64,000 nt of DNA, taken from Legionella rubrilucens. Lineage in GTDB: Bacteria; Pseudomonadota; Gammaproteobacteria; Legionellales; Legionellaceae. The stretch's first letter is position 1, and every line of letters begins with the position of its first letter. The translations under genes and the position numbers were made by a program. Of the stretch, positions 9,322 through 18,992 are shown piece by piece. The DNA lies in the NCBI RefSeq assembly GCF_001468125.1, contig NZ_LNYT01000022.1, forward strand, positions 394,160 through 458,159. Direction: 5' to 3'. Below the pieces are notes generated by a model. The model did no database searches and had not been told where the DNA came from. It worked only from the letters and a program-made list of their open reading frames with translations.

Positions 9322-10770
9322 CTATTTATCCCCTGTGCCGGTAGTCTGCTTACACGGCCTGCAGGCGCAGGGCGTCATGTGTGCAGTAGCAAAAAAGCGC
9401 ACTTTTGCCTTTAATTCCTCAACAATCGCTTGCGCATGCAGGGTATTGAGGGCTATTTGTGTGGTTGTTTGTTCCCGTTGATTAACTAAAAAAAGCGTGC
9501 TGTCACCCTCATAAAATTTTTTGGTTTCGCCATATTGGACCTTTTGTGCCAGCCTTAACTCCCGGATTAAAAGATTGATTTGTCGAATCCCCCGCTGGAT
9601 GCCAATGCGCATGTTTAAATAATCATTGTGCAGCTGGTCATAAAAAAAACGTTTTGCGACTCGAATCTGGCGTAACTCACTTTCCGCCTGAATTAAATCG
9701 CCCTTAGCCTGCCTTTGCAACAAGGGAAATTTAAAGGAGACGCCGACCATGGCGGCCTGGGGAATCAATAAAGGGTCTCCTCCTGTGCCGTTTTGCTTGA
9801 ACGTATAGGCGGTAGCATCCAGCTGCGGTAATAACGCGTTTCTTGCCAAATCACGCTTTAATTGGATGATATGGGTGTAATTAGTGAGCTTTTTAAGCTC
9901 AGGATGTTCGTGAAGCGGCACGGGACTTTTAGTCTGGGGAATAGAGGCCTGGGCCAACGAGGGTACTGCGTATTTGCTTGGAATGATTGGTTTACCCTTG
10001 TCATTGCGATAATAAAGCGACAGATTCACGCTGGCCTGTTCGAATAGCATTCGGCCCTGGTTGAGCAGTTGCTCCCTTTGGATTATCTGCTGTTGATTTT
10101 CACTGATAGCCAGCGTGGGCAAATCGCCCTGGTGTGCCTGCTGCAGAATGGCATGCTGGCGTTGTTTTGCCAGGTGCAGCAGTTGTTCAAATGTCTTTAA
10201 TTGCAGCCCTGCCTCTACCCATTGCCAGTACGCCTGGATGGCTTCCTGGTAGATTTTTATTCTTATGGCTTCAGCGTCCTGTTGTTTCATGAGAATCAAT
10301 TCAGCGGAAGAAAGTAACGCCGTGCGCTGCTTATCAATTAACCGATCACGAAGCAAAGGCAGTGATAATCCTGCCCGGTATTCACCGCCTGAGTTGGTCA
10401 AATAATTTTTGTAGTAAATGGGCCAGTCCCCTTCTCCCTTACGGTAGCCCGCAAAAAGCTTGACGCCATGATAAAGGGTAGGCACAGTAAATTGCGTATC
10501 GCCATAATTATTGATGTAGCCGCCAGCGGGCTGAGAGCGGGTAGTGGCTTCAAGTTCAGGATCAAACTGACCCTTGGCTTTGATAAACTCGCCCTGTGCT
10601 TTTGCGATGTCGAGACGAGCAATTTTCACCTGCGGGTAATGGTGATCAATGCTTTGCAGCACGTCAACCAAATGAAGCATGTGGGGTTTCTGCAAAGCAT
10701 GGGAGCCGTGGGAAATCAGAAAGACGCTCAGTCCTGCCAAGGCCAGTAAAACATGATTTTTAAAGATCAT
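9322..10770 (-). CDS. TolC family outer-membrane channel protein
   Basis: A 482-residue protein with a signal peptide (residues about 1-25, ending SHALQ) and the two long alpha-helical repeats of outer-membrane efflux proteins, visible as Gln/Glu/Lys-rich coiled segments. The C-terminus carries several cysteines (PCACRPCKQTTG), unusual for TolC. It is the last gene of a minus-strand cluster; its start overlaps the HlyD stop by four bases. It would form the outer-membrane exit duct for the HlyD/ABC-like proteins encoded upstream. The cargo is unknown. Confidence 0.82.
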   Translation of the reverse strand: MIFKNHVLLALAGLSVFLISHGSHALQKPHMLHLVDVLQSIDHHYPQVKIARLDIAKAQGEFIKAKGQFDPELEATTRSQPAGGYINNYGDTQFTVPTLYHGVKLFAGYRKGEGDWPIYYKNYLTNSGGEYRAGLSLPLLRDRLIDKQRTALLSSAELILMKQQDAEAIRIKIYQEAIQAYWQWVEAGLQLKTFEQLLHLAKQRQHAILQQAHQGDLPTLAISENQQQIIQREQLLNQGRMLFEQASVNLSLYYRNDKGKPIIPSKYAVPSLAQASIPQTKSPVPLHEHPELKKLTNYTHIIQLKRDLARNALLPQLDATAYTFKQNGTGGDPLLIPQAAMVGVSFKFPLLQRQAKGDLIQAESELRQIRVAKRFFYDQLHNDYLNMRIGIQRGIRQINLLIRELRLAQKVQYGETKKFYEGDSTLFLVNQREQTTTQIALNTLHAQAIVEELKAKVRFFATAHMTPCACRPCKQTTGTGDK

Positions 10771-11753
10771 GGGTTGTTCTTCCCGGCTATGCTTTCTGGC
10801 GGAAAGCCATTAAACTGGCGCCATAATTCATACCACAGCGGGACTTCCCCTAATTGAACCCAGCCATGAACGCGGACCCCTTGCCTTAGGAATTGCGGTG
10901 AAGGCCATGGCTCATCAGGCACGATCACCGCGCGAAAAAGGCCTAGTCCATTGTCCGTGGGATCAATGAAGGCCACCTTTCCTCCAAAAGTACCCACGGC
11001 AATCTGAGGCCATCCCCTGAATTGAATGGCAGGCCATCCTTCAAATTGTAACCGCGCTTTCTGATGTAAGTGGACAAAGGGAATGTCATTGCCGTCAATC
11101 CATAGTTCCACCGCTCGAGATTCTGTTTCCGGAATAATCTGGGCCAATATGTCCCCTTCCTTGACAACCACGCTCTCCTGCCCGGTTAACCGTTTAAAAA
11201 CAATGCCTTTGACATGGGCTTTGATGAGCTGGGATTCCTGCCTTGCAATGCGAACATCAATAGTGACTTTATCAATATTGGCCTGTGCCAAGTCGTTCTG
11301 GTATTTGGTGTATTCAATTTGCGCGAGCTCGTACTGGCGTTTGGAATTAATCCCTTGCTCATAGAGGTTTTTTTGCCGTTTGAGGTTCGCTTCGCCGGCC
11401 AGTAACGCTTTCTCTGCGGCCTCTATGCGAAGCATGATAGCCTTTTTCTCCAGTTCCAGACGTTTCAGTAATTGCGGATCATTGTCATTAATATCCACCA
11501 GCGGATCGCCAGGATTAACACGCATACCCTCATCAACATACCATTTTTTTATTCGGCCGTTGATGGGTGAATTGACCGTGTGGGGACGTTCAGTGGGTGA
11601 GAAGGCAATCACTTTGCCGCTTCCTAAGGCGAATTGTTGCCAGGGAGTGAAGCTTAAAAACAAAAACAGCATCAGCAGGATTAAAAAAATAACCCTGGCA
11701 ATTTTGCGAGGGTTTGGTAATTTACCAATCATTTTGTCAGCATGTAACTTCAT
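10767..11753 (-). CDS. HlyD-type periplasmic adaptor (membrane fusion protein)
   Basis: A 328-residue protein with one N-terminal membrane segment (about 18-38), a barrel-sandwich/lipoyl half motif (VNSPINGRIKKWYVDEGMRV), a short coiled-coil hairpin (about 105-180), and the returning lipoyl half IKAHVKGIVFKRL...VVVKEGDILAQI. It would link the inner-membrane ABC-like protein to the TolC channel. Overlaps both neighbours by four bases (ATGA junctions), consistent with one operon. Confidence 0.85.
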   Translation of the reverse strand: MKLHADKMIGKLPNPRKIARVIFLILLMLFLFLSFTPWQQFALGSGKVIAFSPTERPHTVNSPINGRIKKWYVDEGMRVNPGDPLVDINDNDPQLLKRLELEKKAIMLRIEAAEKALLAGEANLKRQKNLYEQGINSKRQYELAQIEYTKYQNDLAQANIDKVTIDVRIARQESQLIKAHVKGIVFKRLTGQESVVVKEGDILAQIIPETESRAVELWIDGNDIPFVHLHQKARLQFEGWPAIQFRGWPQIAVGTFGGKVAFIDPTDNGLGLFRAVIVPDEPWPSPQFLRQGVRVHGWVQLGEVPLWYELWRQFNGFPPESIAGKNNP

Positions 11754-13333
11754 GAGAGCACCAGGCGGTTAGCAAGCGGAATAAGCTCAGGGTAACACGT
11801 AATGATAATCAGAATGGTTTCATTCATCGCGGCTAACTGTGCCAGGAGGGGTTCGATGTCTTTTCTGTTTAGCTTATCCAGGGCGCCATCAATGATAAGA
11901 AGCTGAGGCTTTGCCAGCATTGCTCGAATGGCCATGAGTTGAACGAGCTCAAGTGGGGTAAATACTCCCTCCCAATCAAAAATAATGCTTTTTAAGCCAT
12001 GAGGCTGCCGCATGATTTTATCCATGAGTCCGAAGGCGATTAACAGCTCTTTGAGTTGCTCGGTGGAAAAAGAAGGGTGGTTCAGCCGGAGGTTGTCATA
12101 AATGCTGCCGGCAAACCATTCATTGTCCCGAATTAACAAGGCATGCTCCCGGAGAGAACGTCGTTGTTCTTCCAGACAGAGGATATTATTGACCAGAATG
12201 GTTATTGGGAGGCTGTTTTTAAATCCCAGAATTAATTCCGCAATGTATTGGCCGGGTTTTGATTCATCCACACCAATGACAAGCGGGTCTCCCATGCGGC
12301 TTGACGCTTCTTTTTGATCTTGAGTAATCAAGGTGAGGCTTTGCATGGGGATAATCAGTTCACTGAGCTCTGTTTTGATCGTTTCGCAGGGCAGATTTAA
12401 TACGGTATCAATTTTATCTTCAGAGGCCACCAGGTCATAGTAATTTTGCAGTAAGACACTAAAACGTTTGAAGGTGTAGATTAGTGCCCCAAGGACAATC
12501 TCGGCGGCAACCAACTGCCCTAAACTTAATTGGTTATTGATAATTAAATACCCGCCCATGCCTAACAACAGACTACTGGCAAAAGCGGAAAGAAGGTAGA
12601 AACCGAACTGATGTTTAATCAGCTGCTTAAAATGGGTGTTACGCGCTTTTAAAAAGGATACCAGGCGTTTATCCGCCTGATGAACGGCGTATTGATGGTA
12701 ATCGTTAAAGCGGAATAAAAAGCGATTGGTGAGCAGTTCCTCTAACCAGGCACCCACCTGGTGTTTCTGCGCACACTCTTCCTTGGCACTCTCCAGTCCC
12801 TTGCGATAGGGAATGAAAACGATAAGCAGGATGCTCAGAATGATAAAACCATCAAACACCAGAAAAAGCGGATGGTAAAACAGGAGCAGGACCAGTCCAA
12901 AAAACAACTGCAGGCTGAGATTGACCCCGTACAGTAAAAGACTGGCCAGTGCTTTATTGATGGTGACTATCTCGAAAAAGCGGTTGACCAGTTCCGGCCC
13001 GTGATGAACGGAGAAATTCGTCAGTGAGAGATGAGTAAACTGACGGGTGAGATTCAGGCTGATTTTGACCATCAATTTCTGCTGAATGACTTCAATGATG
13101 ACACTCTGCCAAATAGTTAATGCCCCCAGGGCAAGCATTAACACCAGGACGATAAGGCTTAGCGTCACCACCGGCTGGAGTAATTTGCCAAAGGCGATGA
13201 GGTTGATTAATGTCTGAGCGGCGATGGGTATGCTTAAGGTCAGTAAGCTCACCAATACGCTGATCATGACGATGGAAGCAATCGTCGCCTTGTCCAATAC
13301 TTCCGTAATGGAATTCATACCCTTTCTACTCAT
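11750..13333 (-). CDS. ABC exporter-like protein with a fully degenerate nucleotide-binding domain
   Basis: A 527-residue protein with a six-helix type I exporter membrane domain (residues about 15-290) followed by an NBD-sized region (about 330-527). The NBD fold seems to persist (WFAGSIYDNLRLNHPS aligns with the usual post-Q-loop LFSGTIRENLRLG, and PQLLIIDGALDKLN with Walker B), but every ATPase element is changed. Walker A reads GVDESKPGQY (354-363) with no GKS/T; the Q-loop glutamine is gone; the LSGGQ signature reads VFTPLEL; the Walker B glutamate is Gly483; and the H-loop histidine is Cys513 (IITCYPEL). No N-terminal C39 peptidase. Yet the frame is intact and coupled to HlyD and TolC genes, so it seems to be maintained. 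It may need a partner ATPase or act without ATP hydrolysis. Confidence 0.8.
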   Translation of the reverse strand: MSRKGMNSITEVLDKATIASIVMISVLVSLLTLSIPIAAQTLINLIAFGKLLQPVVTLSLIVLVLMLALGALTIWQSVIIEVIQQKLMVKISLNLTRQFTHLSLTNFSVHHGPELVNRFFEIVTINKALASLLLYGVNLSLQLFFGLVLLLFYHPLFLVFDGFIILSILLIVFIPYRKGLESAKEECAQKHQVGAWLEELLTNRFLFRFNDYHQYAVHQADKRLVSFLKARNTHFKQLIKHQFGFYLLSAFASSLLLGMGGYLIINNQLSLGQLVAAEIVLGALIYTFKRFSVLLQNYYDLVASEDKIDTVLNLPCETIKTELSELIIPMQSLTLITQDQKEASSRMGDPLVIGVDESKPGQYIAELILGFKNSLPITILVNNILCLEEQRRSLREHALLIRDNEWFAGSIYDNLRLNHPSFSTEQLKELLIAFGLMDKIMRQPHGLKSIIFDWEGVFTPLELVQLMAIRAMLAKPQLLIIDGALDKLNRKDIEPLLAQLAAMNETILIIITCYPELIPLANRLVLS

Positions 13334-13351: not shown

Positions 13352-14203
13352 CTAATGTTTCAATTTATCCATAATAAAGAACTCTAACGATTCAATGGCT
13401 TTGTTTCCTTCTTCCCTTTTTAATAGTGAGACATGAATGTCATCCAACGGGGGTAAAACAGCATTATCCAATCGATCCAGATCATTTGGAATCATGCTGC
13501 GCTGGATCGCTGTAATGCCCAATCCTGCCCGAACAGCAGCCATTTTACCTGCATAACTGGGACTGCTGAAAGCCAAACGCCATTTCAAATGGCGTTGATT
13601 CAAGGATTGGATAACATTGCCACGATAAACGCAAGGGGATGGGGAGAGGACTAAGGGAATGATGGATTGATGATTAAGGGTTGGGAGTAGATCTTTTTTT
13701 CCTACCCATTCAACCGGTTCATTCCATACATTCACTCCTGTTGTTGCCGTGTTTTTTTCATTGGTTTTTATCAAAATCAAATCAAACTCGCTCTGATGAA
13801 AGCGTTCAACCAGACGAAGCGTTAAATCGCATTCCACATTAAGCATGACGCGGGGGTGGAGTCTTGAAAATTCGACCAGGATGTCTGAAAGCATCATGGA
13901 GGCAAAATCTTCGGGTAATCCAAAACGAAGCTCGCCCTGAAGCTCAGGCGCCTTGAAACGATCGAGCGATTCGCGGTGAAGTTCATAAATGCGTTTGGCA
14001 TAGCCTAAAAAAAGTTCACCATCGGGGGTTAACGACAGTTCACGCCCCCGGGTGATGAGTTGCTTCTCTACCAACTGTTCGAGCTTGGCAATTTGCTGAC
14101 TAATGGCGGATTGTGTTCGGCCAACGCGCAATGCCGCTTTGGTAAAACTGTGTGTTTCCGCCACAGCGAGAAAGCATTGCAGGGTGACTGTATCCAGAGA
14201 CAT
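13352..14203 (-). CDS. LysR family transcriptional regulator
   Basis: A 283-residue protein with the LysR N-terminal winged helix (LDTVTLQCFLAVAETHSFTKAALRVGRTQSAISQQIAKLEQ) and a C-terminal effector-binding domain. It is divergent from dabB, the usual layout for a LysR activator and its target, and in other bacteria LysR proteins sit beside dab genes. It also lies only 18 bases upstream of the ABC-like gene on the same strand, so it may head that operon as well. The 87-base intergenic region holds a symmetric 10-bp repeat touching both start codons. Confidence 0.88.
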   Translation of the reverse strand: MSLDTVTLQCFLAVAETHSFTKAALRVGRTQSAISQQIAKLEQLVEKQLITRGRELSLTPDGELFLGYAKRIYELHRESLDRFKAPELQGELRFGLPEDFASMMLSDILVEFSRLHPRVMLNVECDLTLRLVERFHQSEFDLILIKTNEKNTATTGVNVWNEPVEWVGKKDLLPTLNHQSIIPLVLSPSPCVYRGNVIQSLNQRHLKWRLAFSSPSYAGKMAAVRAGLGITAIQRSMIPNDLDRLDNAVLPPLDDIHVSLLKREEGNKAIESLEFFIMDKLKH

Positions 14204-14293
14204 TAGAATTCCTAATACCGTAAATAATAATTTTTAATTTTACTTATATCAGTATATCTAATATTTTTTGTTTTAACAAAAGAAATTCTAATG
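14201..14293. promoter_or_regulatory. Divergent lysR/dabB control region with symmetric start-site repeats
   Basis: CATTAGAATT at 14201-14210 and its exact complement AATTCTAATG at 14284-14293 flank an AT-rich 73-base core. Each arm contains the start codon of one divergent gene. The left arm is also part of ATTAG-N5-CTAAT (14202-14216), a dyad of the T-N11-A size bound by LysR proteins. No convincing -35/-10 pair could be fixed in the core. Confidence 0.5.
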
Positions 14294-15817
14294 ATAATGG
14301 TGATTTTGATGACTCTTCTTTTTTTAAGCCTGCTATTAGGTTGTCCACTGATGGCCCTTGGTCTTCACCTGGTTTTTGCGGCTCGTCCCAAGATTAGTGC
14401 GCAGTATGCGGGTTATTTGATGGGTGCGGGGTTTTTAGCCGCCGTTGGATTGCTGTGTTATTTATCCCTGTTTCAGCAGTCTGTCCTCTGCTTCTGGATT
14501 AACATGGATACGTTAAATGCCTTGTTAGGCAGTCTGGTTTTGTTCATCAGTTTTGCCGTGCATCGCTTTTCATTCCGGTACATGCAGGGAGACAGGCTTT
14601 ACAGGCGTTTTTTTATGCTGATGTCCTCCCTGACCTTAAGTCTGCTTTTGATGGTTTTTGCAGACCACCTTGTCCTGCTTTGGGTGTCCTGGGCTGTTTC
14701 CAATGGGCTGTTGGTGTTATTGATGGTGCATAAAAAGGAATGGCGTGCAGCAAAAAATGCCGGAATTCTGGCATTTTATACACTGGCTTGCGGTTCGTTA
14801 GCATTGCTCATAGCCTTTGTGTTGTTATATTTAAGCGGTTTAACGGGCTCCCTTCAGGCCCTCACAGAGCAACCCCAATGGCCTGACTTGCCGTTGATGC
14901 AGGTGTCGATAAGTTTTCTTTTGGTTGCTGTGCTGATTCAGTCCGCATTATTCCCGTTCCATCGCTGGCTTCTCAGCTCCTTGAACTCCCCAACCCCTGT
15001 TTCTGCATTCATGCACGCAGGCCTTGTCAATGGCGGGGGGATACTCATGGTCAAATTGGCGCCAATAATGGCTCGGCATTCTGCACTGTTAACCGGTTTA
15101 TTTGTATTGGGGGCATTGTCGGCTTTGTTAGGCACCCTCTTTAAACTGATGCAGCATGACATTAAAAAAATGCTGGCCTGTTCAACCATGGCGCAAATGG
15201 GTTTTATGATGATGCAATGCGGACTGGGGTTGTATGCTGCAGCCATCGCCCACCTGTGTTGGCATGGTTTATTTAAAGCCTCTCTTTTTTTAGGTTCGGG
15301 TGCAGCGATTGCGCAAGCCCCACCAGAGAATAACACCCCAAGACCGTCTTTTATTTCTCTTCTTTCGTCTGTTTTCGGCGGGCTAACCGCCGTCTGCGCC
15401 TTTGCCCTGATGACTCATAAAACCATGTCCTGGACGCAAGCGTCTGCTTTTGTGCTGTTTTTTGCCTTCATCGCCGGCGCCCAATTGATGTTGACCTGGA
15501 TTAGTCATCCTAAAAGCCGGGGAAATCGGGTTACCGGGTTAGTCGCGGCGGCTTTGGCTGGGCTTTTATATGGCGTCAGCATTCGTGGTATCGAGCAGCT
15601 GCTTCCCAGCCTGATGGCAATTCAGACGCTGCCGCTGTCGTGGTTGCATTGGACCATCATGATCCTGTTTGGGGCCTTGTGGGTTGGATTGAATGGGGGC
15701 CTTGCTGAGAAATTAGGCGTAACAAGGTTGGGTTGCTGGCTTTATATGACGGTATTTAATGCCAGTCAGCCTTCTGCAAAGACGGTGACGGCATTGCGGA
15801 CCGATTACAGCTACTAA
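14291..15817 (+). CDS. dabB: DabB, proton-conducting NuoL-like subunit of the DAB inorganic-carbon transporter
   Basis: A 508-residue polytopic protein of the NuoL/MrpA antiporter-like fold, with about 12-14 membrane segments and the conserved central part PFHRWLLSSLNSPTPVSAFMHAG, where the Lys/His residues of the proton channel lie in complex I relatives. Paired with a DabA (DUF2309) gene 18 bases downstream it forms the DAB complex, proposed to couple cation flow to vectorial hydration of CO2 to bicarbonate in the cytoplasm. L. pneumophila is among the pathogens reported to carry dab genes. The ATG at 14291 lacks a strong ribosome site; ATG at 14297 and 14309 are alternatives. Confidence 0.85.
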   Translation: MIMVILMTLLFLSLLLGCPLMALGLHLVFAARPKISAQYAGYLMGAGFLAAVGLLCYLSLFQQSVLCFWINMDTLNALLGSLVLFISFAVHRFSFRYMQGDRLYRRFFMLMSSLTLSLLLMVFADHLVLLWVSWAVSNGLLVLLMVHKKEWRAAKNAGILAFYTLACGSLALLIAFVLLYLSGLTGSLQALTEQPQWPDLPLMQVSISFLLVAVLIQSALFPFHRWLLSSLNSPTPVSAFMHAGLVNGGGILMVKLAPIMARHSALLTGLFVLGALSALLGTLFKLMQHDIKKMLACSTMAQMGFMMMQCGLGLYAAAIAHLCWHGLFKASLFLGSGAAIAQAPPENNTPRPSFISLLSSVFGGLTAVCAFALMTHKTMSWTQASAFVLFFAFIAGAQLMLTWISHPKSRGNRVTGLVAAALAGLLYGVSIRGIEQLLPSLMAIQTLPLSWLHWTIMILFGALWVGLNGGLAEKLGVTRLGCWLYMTVFNASQPSAKTVTALRTDYSY

Positions 15818-15835: not shown

Positions 15836-18169
15836 ATGACCACTGCAAAAATGGCTTTGGCACAACATCAGGAATGGGACGAGCGACAGGCGGTTCTTCC
15901 TTTTCAATCATTCAACAAGACGCTTGATATTCGAGCGCTGGTGGAAAAAGCGGCTGAGGTGCTGGCGCCCGTGTGGCCGCTTGAAACCTTTATTGCCTGT
16001 AATCCGCTTCAGGGCTATGAATCGCTTGATTTTGAGGAGGCACTGACCTTAAGGCAATGGCAATCCCCAAAAGCAGGGCCTGCTTCGCTTTTGGCGGTAA
16101 ACCGGCAAATGATAAAGTGGTGTAGCGGCTTTTTTGATGAAGGGCAAAGCCGTATAGAAATGCCGCATCGGGCACGTGGTTTTTATACCGCATTTTTAAA
16201 ATTAGCCTGCTTTGATAAACAACTGCACCAGAATAAGAAGGAATCAAAGCATTTTCTTCGAGAATTGCCAGAGTCGGCTGAGGAAGCAATTAAAATCTGT
16301 CTGTTAAGGCTTGGGGTGCCTGCAGGTCAGGAAGAGGTCTTTTTTTCGCAAACGTTTCTTGCCCTGCCGGGATGGGGCGGGTTTGTGAAACGGCATGCCG
16401 AATGGGGCGGCGTCACGGAATCAGAAAAACCTGCGACCCTGATTGATTTTCTTGCTGTTCGCCTGGTGCTTACCTGTTTACTGTGGCCTTTTGCGGCTAA
16501 AGAACAAACCCATCTGCAGGACAACGAGTCGATGAAAGCCGTTGTCGGGCCATTGAAAGCCAATGAAGCGGCCTATCGCCAGACACTGCTTAACCGGCTT
16601 TTGCCGCAATTAAAAACAACAGCAATCAAAACGGCAAGAAAAAACGCGCAATGGGTGTTTTGTATCGATGTCCGCTCAGAGCCTCTCCGTCGCGCCATTG
16701 AGGCATCAGAACACTATGAAACATTTGGTTTTGCAGGATTTTTTGGAATCCCTGTGCGTGTCAGTGAATTTGAAACCGGCAAGACCAAAGCCTGTTGTCC
16801 GGTTTTATTAGAGCCCCGGTTTGCGATTAAAGAAATGCCCATCGCGGCCAATGAAAAAACGTTAAAGCGTTCGCAGAGGGGGAAATCGTTTATCCGCCGT
16901 TTAAGGAACCTCTACACGCAGTTGAAGCATAATATTTCATCTCCTTTTGCTTTGGCTGAGTGTTTAGGCCCCTGGTGCGGTGTCAGCCTGGCGTTTAAGT
17001 CCCTGGCGCCTCATCTAAGCCAGCGTGCAGTTCAAACCATGAAGCATTGGTTTGCTCCTTCCCTGCCCACCCGGGTCACCTATGAATCGAATGATGCCGA
17101 TTGGCAACATGGCCTGTCCCTGCACGAGCAGATTAATTATGCCGAAACAGCCTTGCGTCTCATGGGACTGACTTCGAATTTTGCCAAACTGATTATTCTC
17201 TGCGGCCATGGGGGTGCGACTGAGAATAATCCCTATGCCTCGGCGTTGGACTGCGGGGCCTGTGGCGGCAATCATGGCGGCTTCAATGCGCAACTATTAG
17301 CCACCATTCTCAATCAGCCCAAAGTGCGATGGGGGTTGGAAGATCGCGGCATCCACCTGCCCCTGGACACCCTTGTTTATGCAGCGCTTCACAATACCAC
17401 CACGGATGCGGTTGAAATCCAGCATCAGGATGTCCCTGCGCCGATTTACCCAGCGCTTTTAAAGCAACTTCAGGATGACTTAAGGGAGGCTCAGTTTAAA
17501 ACCAGTCAAGAACGTGGACTGGCCTTAGGGAGCAAAAAACCGCATCAGGATGCTATCCGCAGAAGCCTGGACTGGTCTGAAACACGTCCTGAATGGGGGC
17601 TGGCACGAAACGCTGCATTTATTGCCGCACCGCGTCAATTGACCAGGAACATTCCCCTGGACGGGCGCTGTTTTCTCCATTCCTATCCGTGGCAGGAGGA
17701 TGAAGACGGGACTTTGCTGGAGACGATTTTAACCGCCCCTATGGTGGTTGCTGAATGGATAAACACGCAGTATTTGTTTTCCACGCTGGATAATGTGACC
17801 TTCGGAAGCGGCAGTAAGATTACGCACAATGTCGTTGGACGAGTGGGCGTCATGCAGGGCAATGGCAGCGATTTAATGCATGGTCTCCCCCTGCAATCGG
17901 TGATGAGCAGCGATGAACAGCCGTATCATCAACTCCAACGGTTGCTCACGGTGGTTTATGCGCCCAGAGAAAGGGTGTTGCCGATCATTGCCAGGCATGA
18001 ACGGTTAAAAAATCTTTTCTTTAACCAATGGGTGCATCTGCTGGTCATTGATCCAGCCAGCGAATTACCCTATCAGCTTAACCCTCAGGGGCATTGGACT
18101 TTATTAAGAGATACTCAGACTGCGAGGCCTGCGCCATTCAGGCAAGGGGAAGAAAAAAATGCTGTATGA
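15836..18169 (+). CDS. dabA: DabA (DUF2309), beta-carbonic-anhydrase-like subunit of the DAB transporter
   Basis: A 777-residue soluble protein. Putative zinc ligands are Cys276 and Asp278 (FCIDVRSE) and His458 and Cys473 (CGHGG...DCGAC). Their spacing (2 and 15) equals that of the zinc ligands reported for Halothiobacillus DabA (C351/D353, H524/C539), so the active site is intact. DabA binds DabB at the inner membrane and hydrates CO2 unidirectionally to bicarbonate. A GAGGAG site precedes the ATG. Its last 11 bases overlap the downstream zinc-ribbon gene. Confidence 0.92.
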   Translation: MTTAKMALAQHQEWDERQAVLPFQSFNKTLDIRALVEKAAEVLAPVWPLETFIACNPLQGYESLDFEEALTLRQWQSPKAGPASLLAVNRQMIKWCSGFFDEGQSRIEMPHRARGFYTAFLKLACFDKQLHQNKKESKHFLRELPESAEEAIKICLLRLGVPAGQEEVFFSQTFLALPGWGGFVKRHAEWGGVTESEKPATLIDFLAVRLVLTCLLWPFAAKEQTHLQDNESMKAVVGPLKANEAAYRQTLLNRLLPQLKTTAIKTARKNAQWVFCIDVRSEPLRRAIEASEHYETFGFAGFFGIPVRVSEFETGKTKACCPVLLEPRFAIKEMPIAANEKTLKRSQRGKSFIRRLRNLYTQLKHNISSPFALAECLGPWCGVSLAFKSLAPHLSQRAVQTMKHWFAPSLPTRVTYESNDADWQHGLSLHEQINYAETALRLMGLTSNFAKLIILCGHGGATENNPYASALDCGACGGNHGGFNAQLLATILNQPKVRWGLEDRGIHLPLDTLVYAALHNTTTDAVEIQHQDVPAPIYPALLKQLQDDLREAQFKTSQERGLALGSKKPHQDAIRRSLDWSETRPEWGLARNAAFIAAPRQLTRNIPLDGRCFLHSYPWQEDEDGTLLETILTAPMVVAEWINTQYLFSTLDNVTFGSGSKITHNVVGRVGVMQGNGSDLMHGLPLQSVMSSDEQPYHQLQRLLTVVYAPRERVLPIIARHERLKNLFFNQWVHLLVIDPASELPYQLNPQGHWTLLRDTQTARPAPFRQGEEKNAV

Positions 18170-18992
18170 GCATCAATCCGTGCTTCTGGCCTCCATGCAT
18201 GAAAAAGAGCGGGCGATTGCCAAGCCCTTTTCAGAGCGGTTGTCCTGCACGCTGGCCATCCATGATTTTAATACGGATCAATTCGGTACATTCACCGGTG
18301 AGGTTGAGCGCCGCTTAAGCCCCTATGAAACGGGCCTGCTTAAGGCTGAAACGGCAGCAGCGCAGTATGGGTATCGGTTGGCTGTGGCGAGCGAAGGCAG
18401 TTTCGGACCTCATCCGGTCATCCCTTTTGTTGCCAGCGCGCAGGAATGGATGGTGTTTATTGATAGAGAGCCGGGCTTAGTCATTGCCGAGCACTTGATA
18501 AGTCAAAAAACCAACTATGCGATGATGACCATCCAGAAGACCACCGATGTGAATGCCTTCCTTAAACGAACCGGTTTCCCCTCTCATGCCCTGACCTTGC
18601 AGGCGGGTTCGGATAAAGGGGTTCTGGCTAAAGGCATTCGCGATCTGGATTGCTTGCATGCTGCTCTGAAGCGTGGCTTCCAAAACGAAAATGAATTGCT
18701 TTTAGGCACGGACATGAGGGCCATGATGAATCCCACCCGCATGGAGGTGCTTGGCGAGCTGGCGGATAAACTGGCGCAAAGGATTGCGACCTTATGTCCA
18801 GAGTGCCATACTCCCGGGTTTGGTTTCAAGACAACACAGGGCTCCCTTCCCTGTCGTCTCTGTGAGGCATCCACCTCGTTTTACAAGCACGAAATTTGGG
18901 CCTGTGTGCAGTGCGATTATCAGGAATTTAAAGGGCGAAAAGATGGCCTTTTGGAGGCTGAGCCGACTTATTGTGACTATTGTAATCCGTAA
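18159..18992 (+). CDS. DUF6671-like zinc-ribbon protein in the dab operon
   Basis: A 277-residue protein without membrane segments. The N-terminal part (EKERAIAKPFSERLS, TFTGEVERRLSPYETGLLKAE) resembles a conserved family I recall as DUF6671. The C-terminal 70 residues carry four CxxC knuckles (CPEC, CRLC, CVQC, CDYC), enough for two zinc sites. It overlaps dabA by 11 bases, so is translated from the same message. Function unknown; the position suggests a role in DabA maturation or metal supply, which is inference. Confidence 0.7.
   Translation: MLYEHQSVLLASMHEKERAIAKPFSERLSCTLAIHDFNTDQFGTFTGEVERRLSPYETGLLKAETAAAQYGYRLAVASEGSFGPHPVIPFVASAQEWMVFIDREPGLVIAEHLISQKTNYAMMTIQKTTDVNAFLKRTGFPSHALTLQAGSDKGVLAKGIRDLDCLHAALKRGFQNENELLLGTDMRAMMNPTRMEVLGELADKLAQRIATLCPECHTPGFGFKTTQGSLPCRLCEASTSFYKHEIWACVQCDYQEFKGRKDGLLEAEPTYCDYCNP

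Follow-up and report, generated by a model that had tools for sequence, protein, structure and literature searches.

An ABC-exporter-type protein of Legionella with an eroded ATPase domain and a possible ion-gradient energy source

Hydrolysis of ATP is the defining property of ATP-binding cassette (ABC) exporters, and a locus of Legionella rubrilucens raises the question of what such a protein might still do once the residues for this reaction have disappeared. The locus lies in a stretch of 64,000 nucleotides (contig NZ_LNYT01000022.1, positions 394,160 to 458,159), referred to here in its entirety as the window and numbered from its first letter, and comprises genes for an ABC-exporter-type protein, an HlyD-type adaptor and a TolC-type outer-membrane factor. 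The answer that we favor, tentatively and with slightly less than even confidence, is that these genes encode a working tripartite system in which the nucleotide-binding domain (NBD) no longer hydrolyses ATP and the transmembrane domain (TMD) does the work by coupling to an ion gradient.

Loss of the ATPase motifs and selection on the gene

The ABC-exporter-type gene and its relevant segments, delineated by alignment with intact exporters unless indicated otherwise, are as follows.

11750..13333, minus strand: ABC-exporter-type protein of 527 amino acids (aa), with the TMD at residues ~1-312 and the eroded NBD at ~330-527 (open reading frame (ORF), Pfam, alignment and structure model)
12500..12502, minus strand: E278 in predicted transmembrane helix 6 (TM6) (residue counts in family and controls)
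12245..12271, minus strand: former Walker A, residues 355-363, VDESKPGQY; motif lost
12089..12133, minus strand: former Q-loop stretch, residues 401-415, reading IRDNEWFAG from 401; Gln lost
11918..11962, minus strand: former signature stretch, residues 458-472, with FTPLE (458-462) replacing LSGGQ
11867..11905, minus strand: Walker B stretch, residues 477-489, LLIID-G, with G483 at the position of the catalytic Glu
11786..11809, minus strand: former H-loop stretch, residues 509-516, IIITC at 509-513; His lost

The preliminary description of this DNA reported the loss of Walker A, the Q-loop Gln, the LSGGQ signature, the Walker B Glu and the H-loop His from an intact reading frame, and the alignment confirms that all five losses are real and that the frame is uninterrupted across all 527 aa. 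The segment WFAGSIYDNL of the former Q-loop stretch is retained, as are D482 and D486 of Walker B, the Walker B Asp being one of the features by which an ABC ATPase in the PF00005 sense is recognized. The sole domain listed by Pfam is ABC_membrane; ABC_tran does not appear among the matches with E <= 1, a range in which the HMMER filters remove most matches above 0.1, and there is no match to the SbmA family in Pfam. In the structure model, which is that of a monomer, the predicted fold of an ABC exporter (type IV) TMD and NBD spans the full length of the protein. The scores against the type I secretion models were all below their cut-offs (TIGR03375 LssB, 69.6 versus 693.1 bits; TIGR01846 HlyB, 67.1 versus 725.55; TIGR01842 PrtD, 26 versus 510.15).

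Among 40 Legionellaceae rows (the duplicates L021 and L026, of L053 and L064, respectively, being excluded), Walker A (scored as GxxGxGK[ST]), the strict signature and the catalytic Glu were each found in none, whereas the Walker B Asp was present in 39; a Gln within one column of the Q-loop site was seen in 6 rows and a His within one column of the H-loop site in 5. Every motif was present in all five control exporters. As judged from this alignment, the Walker B Asp is the last remaining known ATP-binding motif in the Legionellaceae.

Several observations bear out the view of the preliminary description that the motifs were lost under selection rather than through decay. In 111 related genomes, that of the window included, we found 28 full-length open copies with 41-100% identity, the window's own among them, and two distant ones, and the frame remains open in Legionellaceae orthologs down to ~40% identity. 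The whole-gene dN/dS, calculated by the Nei-Gojobori method for 17 pairs, was 0.058-0.143 in 16 of them, with one pair (L013/L015) saturated; apart from the latter, these values are far from 1, so neutral decay is not indicated. By segment, dN/dS was 0.035-0.089 for residues 1-310, 0.043-0.417 for residues 311-395 and 0.089-0.250 for residues 396-527. In four genomes that also encode an intact exporter (six pairs), the latter gave 0.055-0.107 overall, 0.032-0.055 for the TMD and 0.056-0.214 for the NBD, compared with 0.058-0.104 for the eroded gene. The argument that a TMD more constrained than the NBD disfavors a sensor function was dropped, since this pattern is found in the intact exporter as well. 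For the partner genes compared with those of L. erythra, dN/dS was 0.037 (HlyD), 0.078 (TolC) and 0.038 (LysR). Homologs with intact motifs, which the preliminary description would have taken as refuting its view if found in close relatives, are absent from the 40 Legionellaceae rows, whereas distant relatives (~30% identity) often keep Walker A.

A second, broken copy of the operon in one genome (G002) was first taken for a decayed paralog. The two ends of the respective contig (G002:C2; L183 and L184) overlap over 7.8 kb with 99.6% identity, 0 mismatches and 30 gaps, indicative of a circular molecule or a duplicated end; because of this overlap, the second copy with its frameshifts is false, an assembly artefact.

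The gene order in the window is LysR, an 18-bp spacer, ABC, ATGA, HlyD, ATGA, TolC, all on the minus strand, so that the ATGA overlaps by which the preliminary description joined the last three genes are indeed there.

10767..11753, minus strand: HlyD-type periplasmic adaptor, 328 aa (Pfam; ATGA overlap with the ABC gene)
9322..10770, minus strand: TolC-type outer-membrane factor, 482 aa, with two OEP stretches (Pfam)
13352..14203, minus strand: LysR-type regulator, 18 bp upstream of the ABC gene and on the same strand (Pfam)

The overlap between the ABC and HlyD genes recurs in 31 of the 36 Legionellaceae loci. An HlyD gene is present at 161 of the 163 loci compared (36/36 in Legionellaceae, 79/81 at wider loci and 46/46 at loci added later), the two misses, L155 and L160, being short contigs; in L217, it is placed upstream, 2.9 kb away. 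TolC was found at 36/36 Legionellaceae and 69/81 wider loci, and a LysR match at 25 of the 36 Legionellaceae loci; a PII-type gene is present at 19 of these 36. No cargo candidate was seen in the operon of the window; a genome-wide cargo search was not made.

Distribution, graded erosion and a transmembrane signature

When 84,980 species genomes were searched using 20 aligned orthologs, 199 relatives emerged, and the best 80 of the 199 were taken further. Of these 80, 36 come from Legionella, other Legionellaceae or metagenome-assembled genomes (MAGs) grouping with them, and the others include Francisellaceae, methanotrophs, Planctomycetes and Myxococcales, mostly with 28-35% identity. Further members were found in ~10-13 of 370 gammaproteobacterial genomes, 30 of 294 genomes of Planctomycetota (with G673 left out of 29 new matches), 40 of 195 genomes of Myxococcota (with G910 left out of 36 new matches) and 16 of 397 genomes of Pseudomonadota at large; one of the last (L231) proved to be an ordinary ABC protein, and its removal reduced the 47 later loci to 46 (L185-L230). 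A search of 72,556 plasmid records (threshold E <= 1e-40) detected no plasmid-borne copies. Many of the wider members are ~700 aa long, and in those among L069-L110, an N-terminal extension of ~150 aa precedes the ABC exporter core; this extension gave no Pfam match over the cut-off in 10 members scanned, some of which are not of the long form. One record (L105) titled as a Klebsiella pneumoniae MAG groups with methanotroph sequences in the tree, so its label looks wrong. Among the papers listed by searches of open full text, which leaves most subscription journals outside its coverage, no title or abstract describes this family or its link to inorganic carbon.

Outside Legionellaceae, the erosion is less complete. 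Among 83 wider rows (excluding the duplicates L121 and L131-L134, and counting two unreliable rows, L108, with an out-of-frame ORF, and L160, which ends before the signature), Walker A was present in 53, the strict signature in 1, Glu in 20, the Walker B Asp in 69, Q in 3 and H in 11; the respective counts among the 46 later members were 13, 0, 14, 31, 3 and 9. Walker A and Glu occur together in 13/83 and 9/46 of these proteins, and both together with His in 3/83 (L073, L090 and L104) and 4/46 (L187, L188, L189 and L191). The homolog of Methylotuvimicrobium buryatense 5G (L081) is one that retains Walker A and Glu; in planctomycete and Corallococcus members, Walker A can be lost or altered. 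The Q-loop Gln and the strict signature are nearly absent throughout the family (9/123 and 3/46 for Q within one column, 1/123 and 0/46 for the signature). Because Walker A is so often kept by the distant relatives, the loss appears to have been graded and repeated, and in a tree built from TMD columns alone (105 family rows and 5 controls; a quick tree, with long-branch warnings), the Walker A state changes at least 14 times. We infer from these alignments that the family ancestor probably already lacked the Q-loop Gln and the strict LSGGQ, with Walker A, Glu and His then lost repeatedly. The extremes of erosion are the Legionellaceae clade and other Pseudomonadota (L122-L130 and L221-L230).

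In the TMD, 121 family rows were compared with 23 ordinary exporters, namely the nearest non-family matches, selected with Walker A (of 20 control stretches taken, L181 gave no usable ORF, and 4 of the 23 controls lack the strict LSGGQ by the pattern used). Twelve positions are conserved in the family and not in the controls, with the following counts among the 121 rows and the 46 later members: an acidic residue at 14 (117 and 46), an acidic residue at 81 (120; E81 in 44), K127 (120 and 44), H154 (118 and 43), D161 (104 and 29), E186 (112 and 36), K190 (118 and 46), W196 (118 and 44), R231 (114 and 38), H234 (114 and 42), E278 (119 and 45) and Y299 (120 and 45). The ordinary ABC protein L231 has none of these residues. 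On these counts, few single residues mark the family as well as E278 does. The helix boundaries of the structure model place E278 in TM6 and D161 where TM4 begins, and most of the other signature residues would sit in helix extensions toward the cytoplasm.

Association with inorganic-carbon genes

In the window, the operon is preceded by a divergent set of genes that includes both subunits of the inorganic-carbon transporter DabAB.

14291..15817, plus strand: Proton_antipo subunit of DabB type, encoded divergently from LysR (family search)
15836..18169, plus strand: DabA, inorganic-carbon transporter subunit (PF10070, E 9e-233)
18159..18992, plus strand: DUF6671 protein downstream of DabA and overlapping its end (family search)

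DabA or DabB is present at 24 of the 36 Legionellaceae loci; by hand count, 22 of 30 Legionellaceae genomes with a family member encode DabA, and in 19 of them both lie within 10 kb. DabA is split into two overlapping ORFs near residues 225/233 in L051, L053, L057 and L183 (G002:C2:1-8500) and is in two pieces also in G032, G062, G031, G052 and G054; because it is whole at the other contig end of G002, the split in that genome may be a sequencing error.

Outside Legionellaceae, carbon genes were found at 10 of the 81 wider loci: a SulP-carbonic anhydrase fusion between HlyD and TolC (L071), SulP and carbonic anhydrase just upstream (L075 and L087), SbtA and carbonic anhydrase just upstream (L094) or 4-5 kb upstream (L072), SbtA alone at the latter distance (L078), carbonic anhydrase (L104), SulP (L109), and DabB-DabA just upstream in two planctomycetes (L141 and L142). 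In the first 44 genomes, 6 carbonic anhydrase loci from ~4 lineages were seen with 0.27 expected by chance, and 3 SbtA loci from 2 lineages with 0.014 expected; the P values for both are post hoc because the families were picked after viewing the same 44 loci. For DabA, a test family chosen from Legionella, 0.18 loci were expected in 80 wider genomes and 2 sister loci were seen (P 0.015 as two genomes and 0.17 as one lineage), lineages being counted by eye on the tree or by genome closeness throughout. Among the 46 later loci, four from three lineages have a carbon gene ~1 kb or less upstream, namely SulP (L192, L218 and L219) and a DabB-like gene (L204); these loci contained no carbonic anhydrase, SbtA or DabA, the contig of L204 ending before DabA could show. 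The SulP counts and those for the later loci stand without a chance background. The DabB-like protein of L204 (Proton_antipo_M, 33% identity to the DabB of the window) is encoded as in Legionella: its gene diverges from a LysR gene that immediately precedes the ABC gene. Taken together, the varying degrees of erosion in other phyla, sometimes beside bicarbonate-uptake genes, suggest that the system may draw on an energy source other than ATP.

Several further genes recur at these loci. A small winged-helix (HTH_24/MarR-like) regulator, perhaps a shared one, is encoded near the ABC or carbon genes at 13 of the 81 wider loci (L068, L070, L072, L078, L097, L101, L105, L107, L139, L141, L142, L144 and L156) and also in L192, L193, L195, L215, L216 and L218, that is, near the ABC gene or SbtA/DabAB across phyla. 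PurE and PurK, whose steps in purine synthesis use bicarbonate, lie within ~7 kb of the ABC operon in L101 and L107 and in the Legionella loci L036, L046, L047, L049, L052, L055 and L058. At two methanotroph loci with SulP and carbonic anhydrase, TolC is followed by two transporter-like genes that resemble, by eye, a Na+/H+ antiporter and KefB (L075, 8806-11952; L087, 11732-15084). Upstream of its ABC gene, L093 has an ORF of 107 aa that was considered as a piece of carbonic anhydrase; the carbonic anhydrase model did not match it, and it was not counted.

Energy source and comparison with known systems

The favored mechanism would be as follows. The window protein would be the inner-membrane subunit of an envelope system running through the HlyD adaptor to the TolC channel; it would derive from a type I secretion or other ABC exporter that lost its own ATP hydrolysis, with the NBD persisting as a folded dimerization or regulatory piece. 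E81, K127, D161, E186, K190, R231, H234 and E278, together with Y299 and D300, might make up a network, located at the cytoplasmic gate and in TM6, through which gating would be coupled to an ion gradient, most likely of protons, as in SbmA/SLiPT transporters. In many hosts, the system would work beside bicarbonate loading by DabAB, SbtA or SulP with carbonic anhydrase, and one may speculate that it handles the ion imbalance brought by CO2/bicarbonate loading. Coupling to an ion gradient is placed ahead of a passive gated channel or sensor because of the precedent of SbmA, which is reported to have an ABC-exporter TMD and no NBD and to use a ladder of glutamates for its proton-driven transport (PMC13316013). 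The broader proposal that the family, in at least three phyla, is a new class of ABC-exporter-derived transporters, caught in the switch from ATP to an ion gradient, with a dead or dying NBD and a fixed ionizable network in the TMD, carrying either an ion or a small solute across the entire envelope in concert with bicarbonate/CO2 uptake, is doubtful.

Several points weigh against this mechanism. Some signature positions are acidic in the controls as well (Asp at 81 in 8/23, acidic at 300 in 6/23), the structure model is that of a monomer, and the role of the conserved polar residues could lie in binding cargo or docking the adaptor rather than in coupling to ions. The lower dN/dS of the TMD relative to the NBD is nothing special, given that the intact exporter displays the same gap. 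Because some wider members retain Walker A and Glu, a few of them with His as well, ATP binding or hydrolysis may persist in part of the family. The link with carbon genes is not a strict one: none were found at 12/36 Legionellaceae and 113/127 outside loci, some of these loci being on short contigs. Finally, we know of no import route via HlyD-TolC.

Among the alternatives, the one that survives best, even if rather unlikely, is the regulated channel or sensor already envisaged in the preliminary description: the NBD remnant would bind a ligand or protein and open a passive, ATP-independent HlyD-TolC conduit, with no active transport. The intact frame, predicted fold and operon alongside dead motifs fit such a role, as do the constraint on residues 396-527 in their own right, the PII-type genes at Legionellaceae loci and the published discussion of degenerate nucleotide sites as sensors or hinges (PMC7756269); however, no ligand pocket was identified, and the segment with the former Walker A (residues 311-395) is the most variable in some pairs. 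Type I secretion of the ordinary kind, its ATPase cycle being slow, residual or driven by ATP binding, is quite unlikely; members with Walker A would still operate in this way, and Legionella would be a late extreme. The HlyD-TolC gene set and the wider members that keep Walker A, Glu or both with His are compatible with it, whereas the near absence of the Q-loop Gln and strict LSGGQ across the family, and of every known ATP-binding motif but the Walker B Asp in Legionellaceae, speaks against it.

The suggestion of the preliminary description that the protein pairs with another ATPase found no support. An NBD model built from the 23 ordinary exporters, when used to search the ORFs at each of the 163 loci (E <= 1e-4), detected a second NBD-like ORF at 11 loci within the stretch examined; L067, L205 and L227 alone have it on the same strand at a distance of 3 kb or less. 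Thus, no conserved neighboring partner NBD was found across the 163 loci, a distant genomic partner not having been searched for. In ABC exporters, Walker A and the signature of one NBD belong to opposite composite sites, so with both gone, an ordinary partner could, by this reasoning, complete neither site, and a heterodimer or supercomplex in which an ABC subunit encoded elsewhere supplies ATP hydrolysis is very unlikely. A pseudogene or sequencing artefact in decay, to which the loss of every catalytic motif and the broken copy in G002 had seemed to point, can practically be dismissed in view of the low dN/dS, the open frames of the orthologs and the assembly origin of that copy.

If the favored mechanism is correct, the label 'ATP-binding' would mislead for such proteins, and an envelope component would be indicated alongside the established transporters of inorganic carbon, DabAB, SbtA and SulP. 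DabAB itself belongs to an unrelated protein family, so its presence at 24 of the 36 Legionellaceae loci and two planctomycete loci is association, not homology; the terms 'HlyD' and 'ABC transporter' were not found by a term search of the main text of the DAB2 structure paper (PMC13144422).

Like the HlyB/PrtD/LssB exporters of HlyB-HlyD-TolC type systems, the window protein is co-encoded with an HlyD adaptor and a TolC factor; unlike them, it keeps only the Walker B Asp, has its own TMD signature and no recognized cargo gene, and compared with HlyB, it is shorter and lacks the N-terminal domain; its score is far below the LssB cut-off. The type I secretion operon for a methanotroph S-layer, named as PrtD family in the part of the report available (PMC13274458), was set aside by description, without alignment. 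TmrAB, TM287/288 and BmrCD resemble the window protein in having an NBD that lost catalytic residues and yet is kept by selection, but they retain one working composite site, whereas the window protein has lost Walker A, the signature, Glu and His all at once, and no partner gene was found nearby; an overview of tripartite systems, in its accessible part, treats degenerate nucleotide sites for heterodimers (PMC8277102). A functional parallel would be SbmA/BacA (SLiPT), in which an ABC-exporter TMD with conserved acidic residues likewise runs without ATP (PMC13316013). The SLiPTs, however, import and have neither NBD nor coupling helices, whereas the window protein keeps a predicted NBD fold and sits with HlyD and TolC. 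Under the favored mechanism, this multi-phylum family, which keeps adaptor, channel and fold and has repeatedly shed the ATPase chemistry, would illustrate in nature successive stages on the way from ATP-driven to gradient-driven transport, with SbmA as an end point.
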